Positions 4,099 through 58,571 of a stretch of DNA of 64,000 bases are shown here, in pieces; the first letter of the stretch is position 1; the number at the start of each line of letters is the position of its first letter. This stretch comes from Eublepharis macularius (Eukaryota > Chordata > Lepidosauria > Squamata > Eublepharidae). Both the position numbers and the translations under genes were made by a program. Location: NCBI RefSeq assembly GCF_028583425.1, contig NC_072800.1, positions 92,163,001-92,227,000 of the forward strand, in the 5' to 3' direction. The notes beneath the pieces are model-generated. The model searched no databases and had not been told where the DNA came from. It saw only the letters and a program-made list of their open reading frames with translations.

Positions 4099-4330
4099 TG
4101 CCTTAGCCCTACCTGACCAGCCCAGGAGAGCCTGATCTTGTCAGATCTCAGAAGCTAAGCAGGGTTGGCCTTGGTTAATAATTGGATGGGAGACCTCCAG
4201 CAAAGATCAGAATTGCAGAGGCGGGAAGGAAACGGCAAACCACCTCTGTTAGGCTCTTGCCTTGAAAATTCCACCAGGGGTCGCCATAAGTCAACTCTGA
4301 CTTGAGGACAGGATTTCATTTTTTTTTCAA
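4099..4330 (+). mobile_element. 5S rRNA-derived SINE (5S-Sauria type), copy 1
   Basis: The head closely follows 5S rRNA: 'gatctcagaagctaagcagg' then 'ttggatgggagacc', covering the internal promoter (A box, intermediate element, C box) region. The tail 'ggggtcgccataagtcaact' is the BovB-like LINE end used for retrotransposition. It is a SINE, not a working 5S gene, because the 5S 5' part is diverged and the body is foreign. Confidence 0.85.
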
Positions 4331-18794: not shown

Positions 18795-19450
18795 AGGTGG
18801 ATAGCTGTGTTGGTCTGCAGTAGAACAGTAGGCTTTGAGTCCTGTAGTGTTCCCCTTTTGCCGTGAGTTCACAGGTACTCACTCAGGCACCCATTCTCAG
18901 GTCCATTCAGTAGAGACAAAGTGGCTCAAAACACCAGCCGTTTATTTGCAAGGACTCCAACAACCAACAACTTCAACGAACATGCAACAACTTCGGCTGA
19001 CATACAAGAACTCCAGCCAACAGGACCAAACTAAATCATGCAGATATTAGGGGAGGAGGAGACTGTTCCATTACCCTGACCTGAATAGCCCAGGTGAGCC
19101 TGATCTCACCAGATCTCAGAAGCTAAGCAGGGTCAGCCTTGGTTAGTAATCGGACGGGAGACCTCCAACAAAGACCAGGGTTGCAGAGGCAGGCAACAGC
19201 AAACCACCTCTGTTAGTCTCTTGCCATGCAAACCCCAACTGGGGGTCACCGTAAGTCCTCTATGACTTGAGGGCACTCTCCACCACCAGACTGTCCCATT
19301 ACATACCGCCATGTATACAATAAATATTCCGCAAGTCCAGCGGCAGCTGAGAAACCAGGGCAGAAGTTTTTGAAAGTCTGAAGAAGAGAGCTCTGACACT
19401 TGAAAACTTACACCCTGGAAATCTTGTTGGTCTCTAAGGTGGACTCAAAG
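18795..19450. repeat. Penelope-type fold-back repeat H2, split by a 5S-SINE
   Basis: The left edge 'gatagctgtgttggtctgcag' lies at 18799 and the matching right part 'gaaaacttacaccctggaaa..cttgttggtctctaagg' at 19395-19440. The material between includes a 5S-SINE (19078-19290), so the repeat was probably interrupted after insertion. Confidence 0.55.
19078..19290 (+). mobile_element. 5S rRNA-derived SINE, copy 2
   Basis: The head 'gatctcagaagctaagcagg', then 'cggacgggagacc' and the tail 'gggggtcaccgtaagtcc', show the same arrangement as copy 1. Confidence 0.85.
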
Positions 19451-30680: not shown

Positions 30681-30942
30681 GTAAAAGAGTCCAGTAGTAC
30701 CTTTAAGACTAACCAACTTTATTGTAGCATAAGCTTTCGAGAACCACAGCTCTCTTCGTCAGATGCATCATCAGCATCTGACGAAGAGAGCTGTGGTTCT
30801 TGAAAGCTGATGATGCATCTGACGAAGAGAGCTGTGGTTCTCAAAAGCTTATGCTACAATAAAGTTGGTTAGTTTTAAAGGTGCTGTTGGACTCTTTAAT
30901 ATTTTGCGACTACAGACTAACACGGCTAACTCTTCTGGATAT
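30681..30942. repeat. Penelope-type fold-back repeat, copy H5, three arms
   Basis: The usual palindrome is extended here. The 'ctgacgaagagagctgtggt' arm appears once on the minus strand (30725-30762) and twice in tandem on the plus strand (about 30778 and 30819), followed by 'gctacaataaagttggttag' and the right end 'gactaacacggctaactctt'. Confidence 0.85.
30725..30762 (-). ncRNA. Hammerhead-like motif, full core plus helix III
   Basis: CTGACGA, one extra A, helix II GAGAG...TTCTC (one G-T pair), GAA, then helix III AGC-TTAT-GCT and A at the cleavage position (30725). Confidence 0.42.
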
Positions 30943-31548: not shown

Positions 31549-31750
31549 GAGCCAAGCTACAAGTGACGCCTTACACAGGTTGGACGCTTGTCATCTTACC
31601 TCAAGTTTTGATGGGAAATGTAGGCATCCTGGTCTTACAGCTTGGCTCTCCATTACAGCTGCAAGACCAGGATGCCTACATTGCCCATCAAAACTTGAGG
31701 GAAGCTGACAAGTGTCCAACCTGTGTCAGGCGTCACTTGTAGCTTGGCTC
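31549..31750. mobile_element. Fold-back MITE, GAGCCAAGCTACAAGTGACG family, copy P2
   Basis: Termini GAGCCAAGCTACAAGTGACG and CGTCACTTGTAGCTTGGCTC. The inner arms include 'ggttggacgcttgtc' and 'gacaagtgtccaacc' with the centre 'cagcttggctctccattaca'. It is flanked by TGA and TAA. Confidence 0.85.
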
Positions 31751-54089: not shown

Positions 54090-54393
54090 TGTTAGTTATA
54101 GTCCATCTTTCTCACTGAGACTCAAGGTGGGTTACACAGTGTTAGTCAATACAATATAATACACAGGATGGGGCATGAGCCATGTGTCCCTTGGGGTCAG
54201 GTAGCAATTTTCCCCAGGCCAGTTTGGCTAGGGATCCTGATGGAGTTTTGCCATCTCCTGGGCATGCGGTACGGGTGGCTGTGAGTGGGGTGGGGGAAGG
54301 TATTTGGGAATCTCCCGCATTTCTCAGGGGGTTGGACTAGATGACCCTAGAGGTCCCTTCCAACCCTGTGATTCTATGATTCTATGATCTCAT
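54090..54393 (+). mobile_element. L2-like tail piece and CR1 3' end
   Basis: 54090-54165 matches the L2-like 3' tail ('tctttctcactgagactcaa'). 54168-54393 is a plus-strand CR1 end ('ggttggactagatgacccta' ... 'gattctatgattctatgat'). Confidence 0.82.
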
Positions 54394-54970: not shown

Positions 54971-55507
54971 CTCACAGCTCTTCTGGTTGTGTCTTCCAGC
55001 GTGGTGACTAGGGCAGGGACAGCCCAGACATTCACAGCCGTGGCTCCCACACTGAGGGATGGGTTTCTTCGATTGGGCAGGAGCCGGGCAAATAAAGACC
55101 TGCAGGGCCGTGCCTTTGGTTAAGTTGATTAGTTAGCAAGGGCAGAAGATCTGGAGGAGGGCAGGACAGCAGGGGCTCAGGAAGGTCTCTGTGGGCGGCT
55201 GCTTTGCAGGGTGAGCTGAGCCGAGACCCAGTGGCCCGGGCAGCACCACAGCATCTGCTTGGCTCTGGTCCAGACAGTGGCCATACGTCCCCTTGGCTGA
55301 GTCAAGACCAAAAAGTTACCAGGGCTGCTGGTCTCCTTCTTGCTTGTGGGCCACTTTTAACATCTCACCTGCATATTGAATTGAAGGTGTTTTATTGTAT
55401 TGCATTATTGACTATGTGAGCTTCATTTATTCACTCCATCTCTACGCTGCCTTTCTCCACAGTAGAAAAGAGTCCAGTAGCACCTTTAAGACTAGCCAAC
55501 TTTACTG

Positions 55508-55545
55508 TAGCATAAGCTTTCGAGAATCACAGTTCTCTTCATCAG
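55508..55545 (-). ncRNA. Hammerhead-like motif, left arm of H13
   Basis: Minus strand: CTGATGA (the canonical core with U at the variable site), one extra A, helix II GAGAA...TTCTC (5 bp perfect), GAA, helix III AGC-TTAT-GCT, then A at the expected cleavage position 55508. Confidence 0.45.
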
Positions 55546-55582
55546 ATGCATGGAGGGGCATGGAGGGGCACCCTCCATGCAT

Positions 55583-55620
55583 CTGACGAAGAGAGCTGTG
55601 GTTCTCGAAAGCTTATGCTA
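55583..55620 (+). ncRNA. Hammerhead-like motif, right arm of H13
   Basis: CTGACGA, extra A, helix II GAGAG...TTCTC (one G-T pair), GAA, helix III AGC-TTAT-GCT, A at 55620. Confidence 0.45.
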
Positions 55621-56042
55621 CAGTAAAGTTGGCTAGTCTTAAAGGTGCTACTGGACTCTTTTCTATTTTGATACTACAGACTAACACGGCCAACTCCTCT
55701 GGATCTTTCTCCACAGTAGGGACCTAAATGGGCTTACATCGTTCTTCTCTCCTACATGTCATCCTCACAACAATCCTGTGAGGTAGCTCGGGCTGAGCAT
55801 ATGTGATGGGCCCAAGAGCACGTGGTGAGCTTCAATTGTAGACCTGGGACTCAAACCTTGTTCTTCCAGACCCTAGTCTGACGCTCTAGCCACTTCACTG
55901 TGCTGGCCTGTGAGCTGCCTTGGGCCCTTTTAATGAATAATAATACTTGTTTGCTTTAAATAATAATAAAGATCATGCCTAATAGTTGTCAAGAGCCCTG
56001 TCTTTCATAATTTTCCACACACGCCCTTTGAAAGAGTCAGCA

Positions 56043-56055
56043 CTGTGTGTGTGTC

Positions 56056-56090
<35 letters not shown>
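56043..56090. repeat. (GT)n(GA)n microsatellite
   Basis: GT-rich then GA-rich dinucleotide run. Confidence 0.9.
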
Positions 56091-56099
56091 ACTTTACAC

Positions 56100-56385
56100 C
56101 AGGCATACTTAACTTGTGGACTTCACTGCCACAGGATGTGTGGATGGACCACTATAAATATTTAAATAGAATGAATGACAGTGGGATTTAAAGGGGGGTA
56201 TGGGGGAAATTGGCCAAATTCCCAAAGGAAAAGCAAAGAGGAAAGGAAAAGGAAGGAAGGAAGGAAGGGGATGGGAGAGAGCAAGCGCAGGAGAGAAAGA
56301 GAGCGCTTTACACCAGGCATGCTTAACTTGCGGAACTCACTGCCACAGGATGTGTGGATGGACCACTATAACTATTTAAATAGAT
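56100..56385. repeat. Direct repeat of about 60 bp separated by 200 bp
   Basis: 'actttacaccaggcatactt ... aactatttaaatag'-type text at about 56090-56170 recurs at about 56305-56385 ('gctttacaccaggcatgctt ... taactatttaaataga'). A GGAAGGAAGG run lies between (56240-56265). Confidence 0.75.
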
Positions 56386-56387
56386 CC

Positions 56388-56505
56388 AGAGGAGTTTGCC
56401 GTGTTAGTCTGTAGTAGCAAAATCAAAAAGAGTCCAGCAGCACCACCAAGACCATCCAATTCCACTGCAGCACAAGCCTTCGAGAACCACAGCCCTCCCC
56501 ACTGG
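56388..56505 (+). repeat. Penelope-type repeat fragment upstream of a coding remnant
   Basis: Starts 'gatccagaggagtttgccgt' and ends 'ccacagccctcccc', just before the GIY-YIG-like fragment. It has the same end point as H12 at 53013. Confidence 0.7.
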
Positions 56506-56512
56506 TGAACCA

Positions 56513-56700
56513 GTGGGAGAACACTTCAATCTACCAGGACATTCCATCAAAGACTTAAAGGTTGCTGTAGTTCAACAGAAACCTTTCAAAAACAAAATCC
56601 AGCGGGAAGCTGCTGAATTGGAATTCATATGTAAATTTGACTCAGTCAGGCTGGGACTGAATAGGGACTATGAATGGTTATCACATTATCACAGGTAACT
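56513..56700 (+). pseudogene. Penelope-type retroelement C-terminal (GIY-YIG region) fragment
   Basis: The frame from 56513 has 'GEHFNLPGHSIKDLKV', then 'REAAELEFICKF', then 'GLNRDYEWLSHY'. That is the order found at the C-terminus of Neptune-like Penelope elements, after the GIY-YIG endonuclease domain. The frame stops at 56698. It is flanked on both sides by repeat arms of the fold-back family (56388-56505 and 56725-56915). That fits the Penelope habit of carrying terminal repeats, and links the fold-back repeats to this element type. No reverse transcriptase is present in the window. The assignment is by remembered motif pattern and should be checked by profile search. Confidence 0.68.
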
Positions 56701-56724
56701 GATTTCCTTTACATAGGTGGGGTC

Positions 56725-56915
56725 GGGGAGAGTCCAGTGGCACCTGGCGTGGGCTTTCAAGGACCACGGTTCTCTTTGTCAGATGCATCTGGCGGGGAGA
56801 GCTGTGGTTCTCGAAGGCTTGTGCTGCAGGGGAATTGGATGGTCTTGGTGGTGCTGCTGGACCCTTTTTGATTTTGCTACTACAGACTAACACTTCTAAC
56901 TCCTCTGAACTTTTA
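56725..56915. repeat. Penelope-type fold-back repeat, copy H14
   Basis: 'ggagagtccagtggcacctg' to 'actaacacttctaactcctc', a GC-shifted subfamily ('attggatggtcttggtggtg'). Its core is mutated (CTGGCGG). Confidence 0.8.
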
Positions 56916-57036
56916 CAGAAGCAAACTGATCTCCACAGCAGAAGGAGCTGTTTGCATCTGCATATCAGGAGATGTTTGCATCTACCCCGCCCCCCCTCCT
57001 CCTCTATATCTGACCAGTTTCTCTTTTTGCCCTCCA

Positions 57037-57125
57037 TGCCTCTGACGAAGAGAACTGTGATTCTCGAAAGCTTATGCTACAATAAAATTGGTTAGTCTTA
57101 AAGGTGCTACTGGACTCTTTTCAAT
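57037..57125 (+). repeat. Penelope-type repeat, single arm copy H15
   Basis: 'ctctgacgaagagaactgtg' to 'ctactggactcttttcaatc'. Confidence 0.85.
57042..57079 (+). ncRNA. Hammerhead-like motif in H15
   Basis: CTGACGA (57042-57048), extra A, helix II GAGAA (57050-57054) with TTCTC (57061-57065), GAA (57066-57068), helix III AGC-TTAT-GCT (57069-57078), A at 57079 at the expected cleavage position. Helix I is weak, as expected of types thought to act as dimers. Confidence 0.45.
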
Positions 57126-57227
57126 CCATGGACTGTCCCTTTCTCTCTGCATCATTATCATAAAGTGATGCTGCTGATCTTTTATCTGGGAAGTCCCCCA
57201 AAAAAGCCAATGAAGGGATGAGAAGGG

Positions 57228-57782: not shown

Positions 57783-57983
57783 AGCCAAGCTACAAGTGAC
57801 GCCTTACACAGGTTGGACACTTGTCAGCTTCCCTCAAGTTCTGATGGGAAATGTAGGCATCCTGGTTTTACAGCTTGGCTCTCCATTACAGTTGCAAGAC
57901 CACGATGCCTACATTTCCCATCAAAACTTGAGGGAAGCTGACAAGTGTCCAACCTGTGTCAGGCGTCACTTGTAGCTTGGCTC
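57783..57983. mobile_element. Fold-back MITE, GAGCCAAGCTACAAGTGACG family, copy P3
   Basis: Perfect family ends (GAGCCAAGCTACAAGTGACG and its inverse), flanked by TGA on both sides, which suggests a 3-bp duplication. Confidence 0.88.
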
Positions 57984-58169: not shown

Positions 58170-58287
58170 GGGCGAAGCTACAAGTGACGAATGACACTTG
58201 AACGGCAAGTGTATTTCTCCCTGTTCACTTGCACTCCACTCAATCCACTTGCTGTTCAAGTGTCATTCATCACTTGTAGCTTGGCCC
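58170..58287. mobile_element. Fold-back MITE, GGGCCAAGCTACAAGTGACG family, short copy P4
   Basis: 118 bp; ends GGGCGAAGCTACAAGTGACG and inverse; inner arms 'gacacttgaacggcaagtg' and 'cacttgctgttcaagtgtc'. Flanked by TTA and TCA. Confidence 0.85.
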
Positions 58288-58571
58288 TCAGGAGATCCAA
58301 GCCAAAACAAGAGGGCACTGTTTGCAAATATTTCCATCTGTTATGAAAATGAGATTTTCCTGTTGCGTGATGCTGTTGCATTAGTTTGGTGATCCGTGGT
58401 TGGTTGGGAGCAGCTGGGGAAGAATCACCCGATCTCTTTGAGAACGATTGGTTCTATCCTACTGCTGTTTAGCTCAGCGTAGAGCCTTCTTCCGGCTCAT
58501 AAAGCTTTCCACTGGAGGCGATGCCTCTTCTGCAGGAGAAAATCTCCCTAGGATGGAGAAATACTACACTT

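Follow-up and report, generated by a model that had tools for sequence, protein, structure and literature searches.

The three hammerhead-like cores found near 55.5 and 57 kb of the window (the whole 64-kb stretch of DNA that was analysed) are very probably copies of a hammerhead-type motif carried by a Penelope-like element (PLE), which is predicted to act as a minimal ribozyme cutting at GCUU^AUGC when two copies pair. What is likely new beyond the known PLE hammerheads, judging from the sequences compared here, is a degraded and probably edited twin of this motif at nearly every element end examined. The features underlying both readings are collected in Table 1.

The three 38-nt strings that the first-pass annotation had placed at minus 55545-55508, plus 55583-55620 and plus 57042-57079 are present exactly as described, and its proposal of a hammerhead-like core is borne out. 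A scan demanding CUGANGA, a helix II with 4 bp or more, GAA and a small A..U hairpin returned 5 sites in the 64 kb, compared with a mean of 0.1 in 100 first-order Markov simulations (any site in 9/100), and the helices covary, as detailed below. The covariance model with structure (R1) scored the cores at 68.7 (55506-55551), 63.5 (55577-55622) and 59.5 bits (57036-57081); a sequence-only model, weighted differently from R1, gave the same three 52.0, 49.9 and 46.3 bits. Window-wide, the repeat profile matched 28 stretches and the motif covariance model 22 at E-values up to 1, while exact matches to one core pattern number 27,997 (14,039 + 13,958) in the 2.24-Gb host genome (72 contigs), where the reversed pattern yields 0. 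The size of this genome and its repeats point to a squamate reptile as the probable host. In Rfam, neither 55400-57200 nor 57030-57095 matched a hammerhead family at E-values up to 10, and the window had none at the gathering score; a scan of viral contigs with an 18-nt piece produced no match.

Table 1. Hammerhead motifs and Penelope-like element features in the window
Feature	Position	Strand	Evidence or remark
Additional intact hammerhead, same class as the three cores	30723..30768	-	scan rule and covariance model
Left target-site duplication CTTTCTCCACAGTAG of fold-back insertion	55451..55465	.	exact 15-nt match to 55705-55719
Inverted pseudo-LTR arm without tail, outer end AAAAGAGTCC	55466..55557	-	short end in 18/30 class A copies (window's included)
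Hammerhead: helix I GCAU/AUGC, CUGAUGA, extra A, helix II, GAA-AGCU-U	55510..55549	-	predicted cut between 55514 and 55513
Direct pseudo-LTR arm with tail ending CTCCTCTGGAT	55571..55704	+	tail in 12/30 class A copies (window's included)
Hammerhead, complete helix I GCAU/AUGC	55579..55618	+	predicted cut between 55614 and 55615
Right target-site duplication	55705..55719	.	exact 15-nt match to 55451-55465
Inverted class B (degraded hammerhead) arm with tail-like end, head-to-head with ORF piece	56386..56500	-	
PLE ORF 3' end, stop TAA 56696-56698	56501..56698	+	64 aa, at least 97% identical in 149 other scored places
Untranslated fold-back, minus arm (class B)	56727..56788	-	23 nt deleted relative to class A
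Untranslated fold-back, plus arm, degraded hammerhead CUGGCGG...GAAGGCU	56783..56870	+	R1 31.2 bits for 56783-56828
Tail-like sequence after fold-back, without A-to-G	56871..56907	+	0/12 aligned A; 0/11 with other comparison
Spacer, pyrimidine tract and TATA-like TCTATATCTGACCAG	56908..57037	+	partial matches at same place in L069-L072; visible in L039-L068
Hammerhead at PLE place before pseudo-LTR end; helix I GCCU/AUGC	57038..57077	+	predicted cut between 57073 and 57074
Pseudo-LTR end without tail, GGACTCTTTT	57078..57122	+	end comparison

The suspected Penelope connection also holds, the peptide encoded at 56504-56697 being common to long PLE frames, one of which carries RVT_1 and GIY-YIG. 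This peptide has 14,564 candidate places in the genome; all 150 that were scored match, with open frames of up to 932 aa. The 932-aa frame (locus L069) contains RVT_1 at an E-value of 1.3e-11 and GIY-YIG at 22.7 bits, barely above the cut-off of 22.6, and has no PDB match; the 64-aa piece alone found nothing in Pfam or in a protein search. Four copies picked for long frames (L069-L072) all have the motif 3' of the PLE ORF and share the order ORF, class B fold-back, tail-like piece, spacer, hammerhead. The ORF of L069 is bracketed by two minus-strand motifs, at 4266 and 1123, which are separated by 3,143 bases; a third, inverted motif lies beyond. The motif 5' of the ORF was seen in L069 only, the sole copy whose frame extends that far, and is absent from view in L070-L072; the 932-aa stop-to-stop frame of L069 starts inside it. 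We read 56501-57122 as one PLE 3' end, comprising ORF end, fold-back, spacer and motif, because its order matches that of L069-L072, and the spacer may serve as a promoter. The idea of separate, non-autonomous ribozyme-bearing derivatives was not supported: 56501-57122 is contiguous and belongs to an ORF-bearing PLE, and 55466-55704 shows the published PLE insertion anatomy, with its motifs inverted and not in tandem as in a retrozyme. Reverse transcriptase and GIY-YIG occur in one ORF, together with pseudo-LTRs, an inverted arm, an optional tail and target duplication, as in PLEs.

Covariation was evaluated against 1000 shuffles per helix. The 259 profile hits (window plus fetched loci) included 172 stretches covering the motif, which reduce to 96 distinct rows; 10 of these rows are of the degraded class B, and the remaining 86 form the non-degraded set. 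Paired cells amount to 410/429 in helix II, where 58 show both-side changes, and to 309/340 in helix I (GCAU with AUGC), where 41 do; the rows are mutually related, and these changes are therefore not independent events. In neither case did any of 1000 shuffles reach as high. The outcome is in agreement when all 96 rows, class B included, are used, a separate 25-row alignment gives the same answer for both helices, and RNAalifold, unprompted, recovered three of the four pairs of helix I. Class A copies have GCAU/AUGC in this helix, many class C copies have GUAU/AUAC instead, and a small number of copies, L099 and L109 among them, have GUGU/ACAC. The innermost pair of helix I is broken in 12/85 rows, 10 of which have C after the cut. 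Helix I had been described as weak, which holds in part: the 57042 copy loses one of the four pairs through its GCCU, and in both copies of 55466-55704 the full 4-bp GCAU/AUGC flanks core and cut. Helix II covaries, but it starts one extra A after A9 and not directly, and this single-base insertion, already pointed out in the first-pass annotation, is found in 84/86 rows.

Within the core, A6 (84), G8 (80), A9 (83), A14 (85), A15.1 (84) and U16.1 (82) are nearly fixed among the 86 rows, a conservation that is partly by construction, the row-choosing profile having been seeded from CTGANGA-core copies. Position 7 of the CUGANGA box (N7) is free (A 34, C 34, T 17) between its nearly fixed neighbours. 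Every core position is kept in 61/86 rows, and H17, preceding the cut, is T in 61 and C in 24. Helix III within one molecule was not found: only AGCU is left, AGCT occupying the A15.1-U16.1 stretch in 78/86 rows as a self-complementary tetramer in the place of helix III. The fold that the alignments support is a 4-bp helix I, helix II and a palindromic AGCU replacing helix III; we accept helices I and II because compensatory changes support them. The predicted cut is then GCUU^AUGC, 6 nt to the 5' side of the position proposed initially.

That initial proposal, a type I hammerhead whose helix III AGC-UUAU-GCU is followed by cleavage after the A at 55620 or 57079, we regard as highly unlikely. 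Class A copies can form such a helix, and for the 57042 copy with its damaged helix I it gives the more stable fold (-6.4 vs -3.2 kcal/mol, the C-U pair uncounted). Across the 86 rows, however, only 174/254 of its cells are paired (68.5%), a level reached by 716/1000 shuffles, with one both-side change; its third pair is C-A in 39/85 rows, pairing falls at 57.3% in the 25-row alignment, and the fold leaves the cut without an adjoining helix I. We rejected it on covariation despite its greater stability in the 57042 copy alone, and cleavage after those A residues is not borne out. In both 55.5-kb copies the helix I fold is better by 1.2 kcal/mol (-7.3 vs -6.1 and -7.6 vs -6.4). Free folding of single copies gave a mixed picture, with helices I and II appearing in the 55583 and 55545 copies and in the L069 motif, and a competing fold in the 57042 copy and the class C copy L073.

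AGCU:AGCU pairing may join two motifs of a long PLE RNA, which in L069 lie about 3.1 kb from each other, into a double hammerhead; this would cut the RNA to unit length, perhaps aided by the PLE's own protein, as reported for the anole PLE. The anole hammerhead cleaved only when its protein was added (PMC11167929), and the methods of that paper, in the part available, mention earlier self-cleavage of a PLE hammerhead in Mg2+. Unconstrained two-strand folding of three copies did not return the AGCU dimer; the dimer idea therefore rests on the palindrome and on the literature. A transcript of 55466-55704 is predicted to fold into one long hairpin (-177 kcal/mol), and this unit would probably cleave poorly, its own ribozymes masked, since each motif is transcribed after its own antisense. 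The window copies themselves would be dead-on-arrival insertions.

Could the motif be conserved without being catalytic, for another role of the pseudo-LTR such as recognition by the PLE protein, the start of reverse transcription or coding in the upstream frame? We consider this unlikely. The anole PLE lends it some substance, as ribozyme-dead mutants still inserted in vitro and RNA ends at the cut were not found (PMC11167929), and so does the opening of the L069 frame within the motif; against it stand a near-fixed core in which N7 alone is free and two covarying helices, a combination unexpected from coding or binding alone. That hammerhead-like strings arose by chance within abundant repeats is barely credible. 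The copies are all related, so copy number alone proves nothing, but the excess of sites over the simulations, the compensatory changes between subfamilies, the presence of the motif at both ends of the L069 ORF and the earlier reports of PLE hammerheads (excerpts from PMC7761336) all argue against coincidence. Taking the catalytic reading forward, the corrected fold and cut site point a bench test at the right phosphate, subfamily-level covariation is now at hand for a hammerhead made of helix I, helix II and a palindromic AGCU, and some 28,000 exact cores in one genome constitute natural variants for testing whether PLE hammerheads act as dimers.

The 55466-55704 unit is, judged by its architecture, a head-to-head insertion in which the direct arm has a tail and the inverted arm has none; an exact 15-bp target duplication flanks it, and the stretches 55458-55557 and 55571-55670 are 95% complementary. 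A further unit at 33.1 kb has a 13-bp duplication, so that target duplications are convincing (15 and 13 bp) at 2/8 head-to-head units, with a third ambiguous at 6 bp and five unconvincing. The first 100 cores listed on contig C1 include 23 divergent and 5 same-strand pairs of neighbours no more than 5 kb apart, and 0 convergent ones. This anatomy agrees with Adineta PLE insertions (excerpts from PMC3846280) and with the anole PLE, for which two starts of reverse transcription are described (PMC11167929). Certain spacings are repeated among the divergent pairs listed on C1 (2995-2997 bases in four pairs, 1632 in two and 638 in two), which suggests preferred inverted forms or shared duplications. 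Separately, a 94-nt direct repeat (56077-56170 and 56291-56384, 91% identical) was noted, the end of its second copy being the exact start of PLE sequence.

The degraded copy of the motif lies in the untranslated fold-back behind the ORF. Loci L009-L038 contain 31 ORF ends, on either strand, with the last codons and stop intact, and 29 of them are followed by the fold-back at no more than 130 bases; the exceptions are L023, whose fold-back has one changed base, and L028, which has none. The full core is kept in 0/10 class B rows. Relative to L045, a tailed class A copy, the L064 fold-back differs on the sense strand of its two arms by 22 A-to-G changes and 2 of other types: A-to-G affects 15/26 A in the plus arm and 7/16 in the minus arm, compared with 0/12 in the tail (plus arm vs tail, p 0.0008). 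A residues after U are changed in 9/9 cases and those after other bases in 13/32 (Fisher p 0.0017); after G the figure is 5/11, not below the non-U contexts together, and the usual ADAR avoidance of G is thus unseen. The ratio of A-to-G to other changes is similar in L040 (22/2), L055 (22/2) and L041 (21/2) and is 22/7 in the window copy, whose plus arm gives 12 A-to-G and not 15 with another class A reference. The control comparison of class C1 with class A contains 1 A-to-G among 17 changes. Within the window, only the 56727-56870 fold-back is skewed among 11 arm pairs (those at 19 and 53 kb being doubtful), by 14 to 1 (p 0.001, about 0.01 corrected for 11). In 40 fold-backs, picked by a class B-fitting pattern, the sense strand averages 10.1 G-U, 1.4 A-C and 3.1 further mismatches; its folding energy is -51 kcal/mol, vs -27 for the other strand. 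Class B had also been considered a rare accident of three window copies; this was dropped, as 45 places were found from 1,200 candidates (40 scored), and ORF-bearing loci showing class B as part of the element contradict it too.

We lean towards the view that the fold-back is a former pair of live hammerheads. A PLE RNA carrying such a pair would have folded back on itself and been hyper-edited by ADAR on both arms, with loss of the ribozyme core; the edited RNA would then have been reverse transcribed, and its copies would have multiplied as a fixed component of a lineage with an ORF, while the downstream twin hammerhead would have stayed intact. RNA-level editing of lizard Penelope is massive, with over 40,000 sites according to excerpts from PMC5625713; among open-licence papers we found no report of a heritable trace of RNA editing in a PLE. 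A rival that we retain attributes the entire G-U excess to selection on the RNA hairpin. Such selection should produce C-to-T as readily as A-to-G, whereas both arms of L064 hold 22 A-to-G vs 1 C-to-T; the pattern of subfamily B2 (L020, L029, L036) is less pure, 9-10 plus 6-8 A-to-G standing beside 8 to 14 other changes. Selection of this kind could have added to the G-U excess. If the editing reading is true, host editing heritably rewrote a mobile element, killing one ribozyme copy and sparing its downstream twin, and the fold-back is relevant to the question of whether retroelement RNA, once A-to-I edited, can re-enter the genome and give rise to lineages.

Several other features of the window were recorded. 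Two further inverted repeats (about 57784-57980 and 58170-58290) with AAGCTACAAGTGACG-type ends are perhaps miniature DNA transposons, as judged by eye, and 54280-54385 ends in repeated ATTCTATGA, resembling the 3' end of CR1 LINEs. At 19072-19189 (+) a 5S rRNA match sits at the Rfam cut-off (38.3 vs 38 bits), perhaps a 5S-derived repeat, and at 31611-31688 (-) a mir-30 match (52.2 vs a cut-off of 50.2 bits) lies between two fold-back units.

The window motif fits the published minimal, probably dimeric PLE hammerheads, and its kind is therefore already known. According to excerpts from PMC7761336, the minimal type I hammerheads of PLE pseudo-LTRs usually lack non-conserved helix III nucleotides, and a dimeric mode of cleavage is considered possible; Cervera and de la Pena 2014 and Lunse, Weinberg and Breaker 2017 are the sources named in excerpts from PMC7761336 and PMC10085705. 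As far as these excerpts go, the pseudo-LTR core, the near-absent helix III, the proposed dimer and the thousands of copies are alike, whereas the window family is set apart, by comparison with the descriptions, by the second, degraded copy in the untranslated fold-back after the ORF and perhaps also by the extra A between A9 and helix II (84/86).

The Poseidon PLE of Anolis carolinensis, PAc (PMC11167929), shares GIY-YIG and reverse transcriptase, hammerhead stems I and II at the ORF start, and a tail explained by two reverse-transcription starts. By its description, the PAc cut lies 26 bp after the start codon (stem II start), and the distance from A9 to U17 in the window motif is 26 nt, a suggestive agreement. 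PAc is nevertheless another element, and its cleavage was tested with protein, whereas cleavage of the window motif is predicted. The Penelope of Adineta vaga (PMC3846280, excerpts) resembles the window insertions in its inverted head-to-head pseudo-LTR, junction palindrome, optional one-arm tail and short target duplications, these being 8-10 bp vs 15 and 13 bp in the window; the word hammerhead is absent from the text of that paper to the extent available. Metazoan retrozymes likewise place type I hammerheads in mobile elements, but in the excerpts from PMC7229834 and PMC7761336 they are non-autonomous, whereas the window motif belongs to an ORF-bearing PLE.
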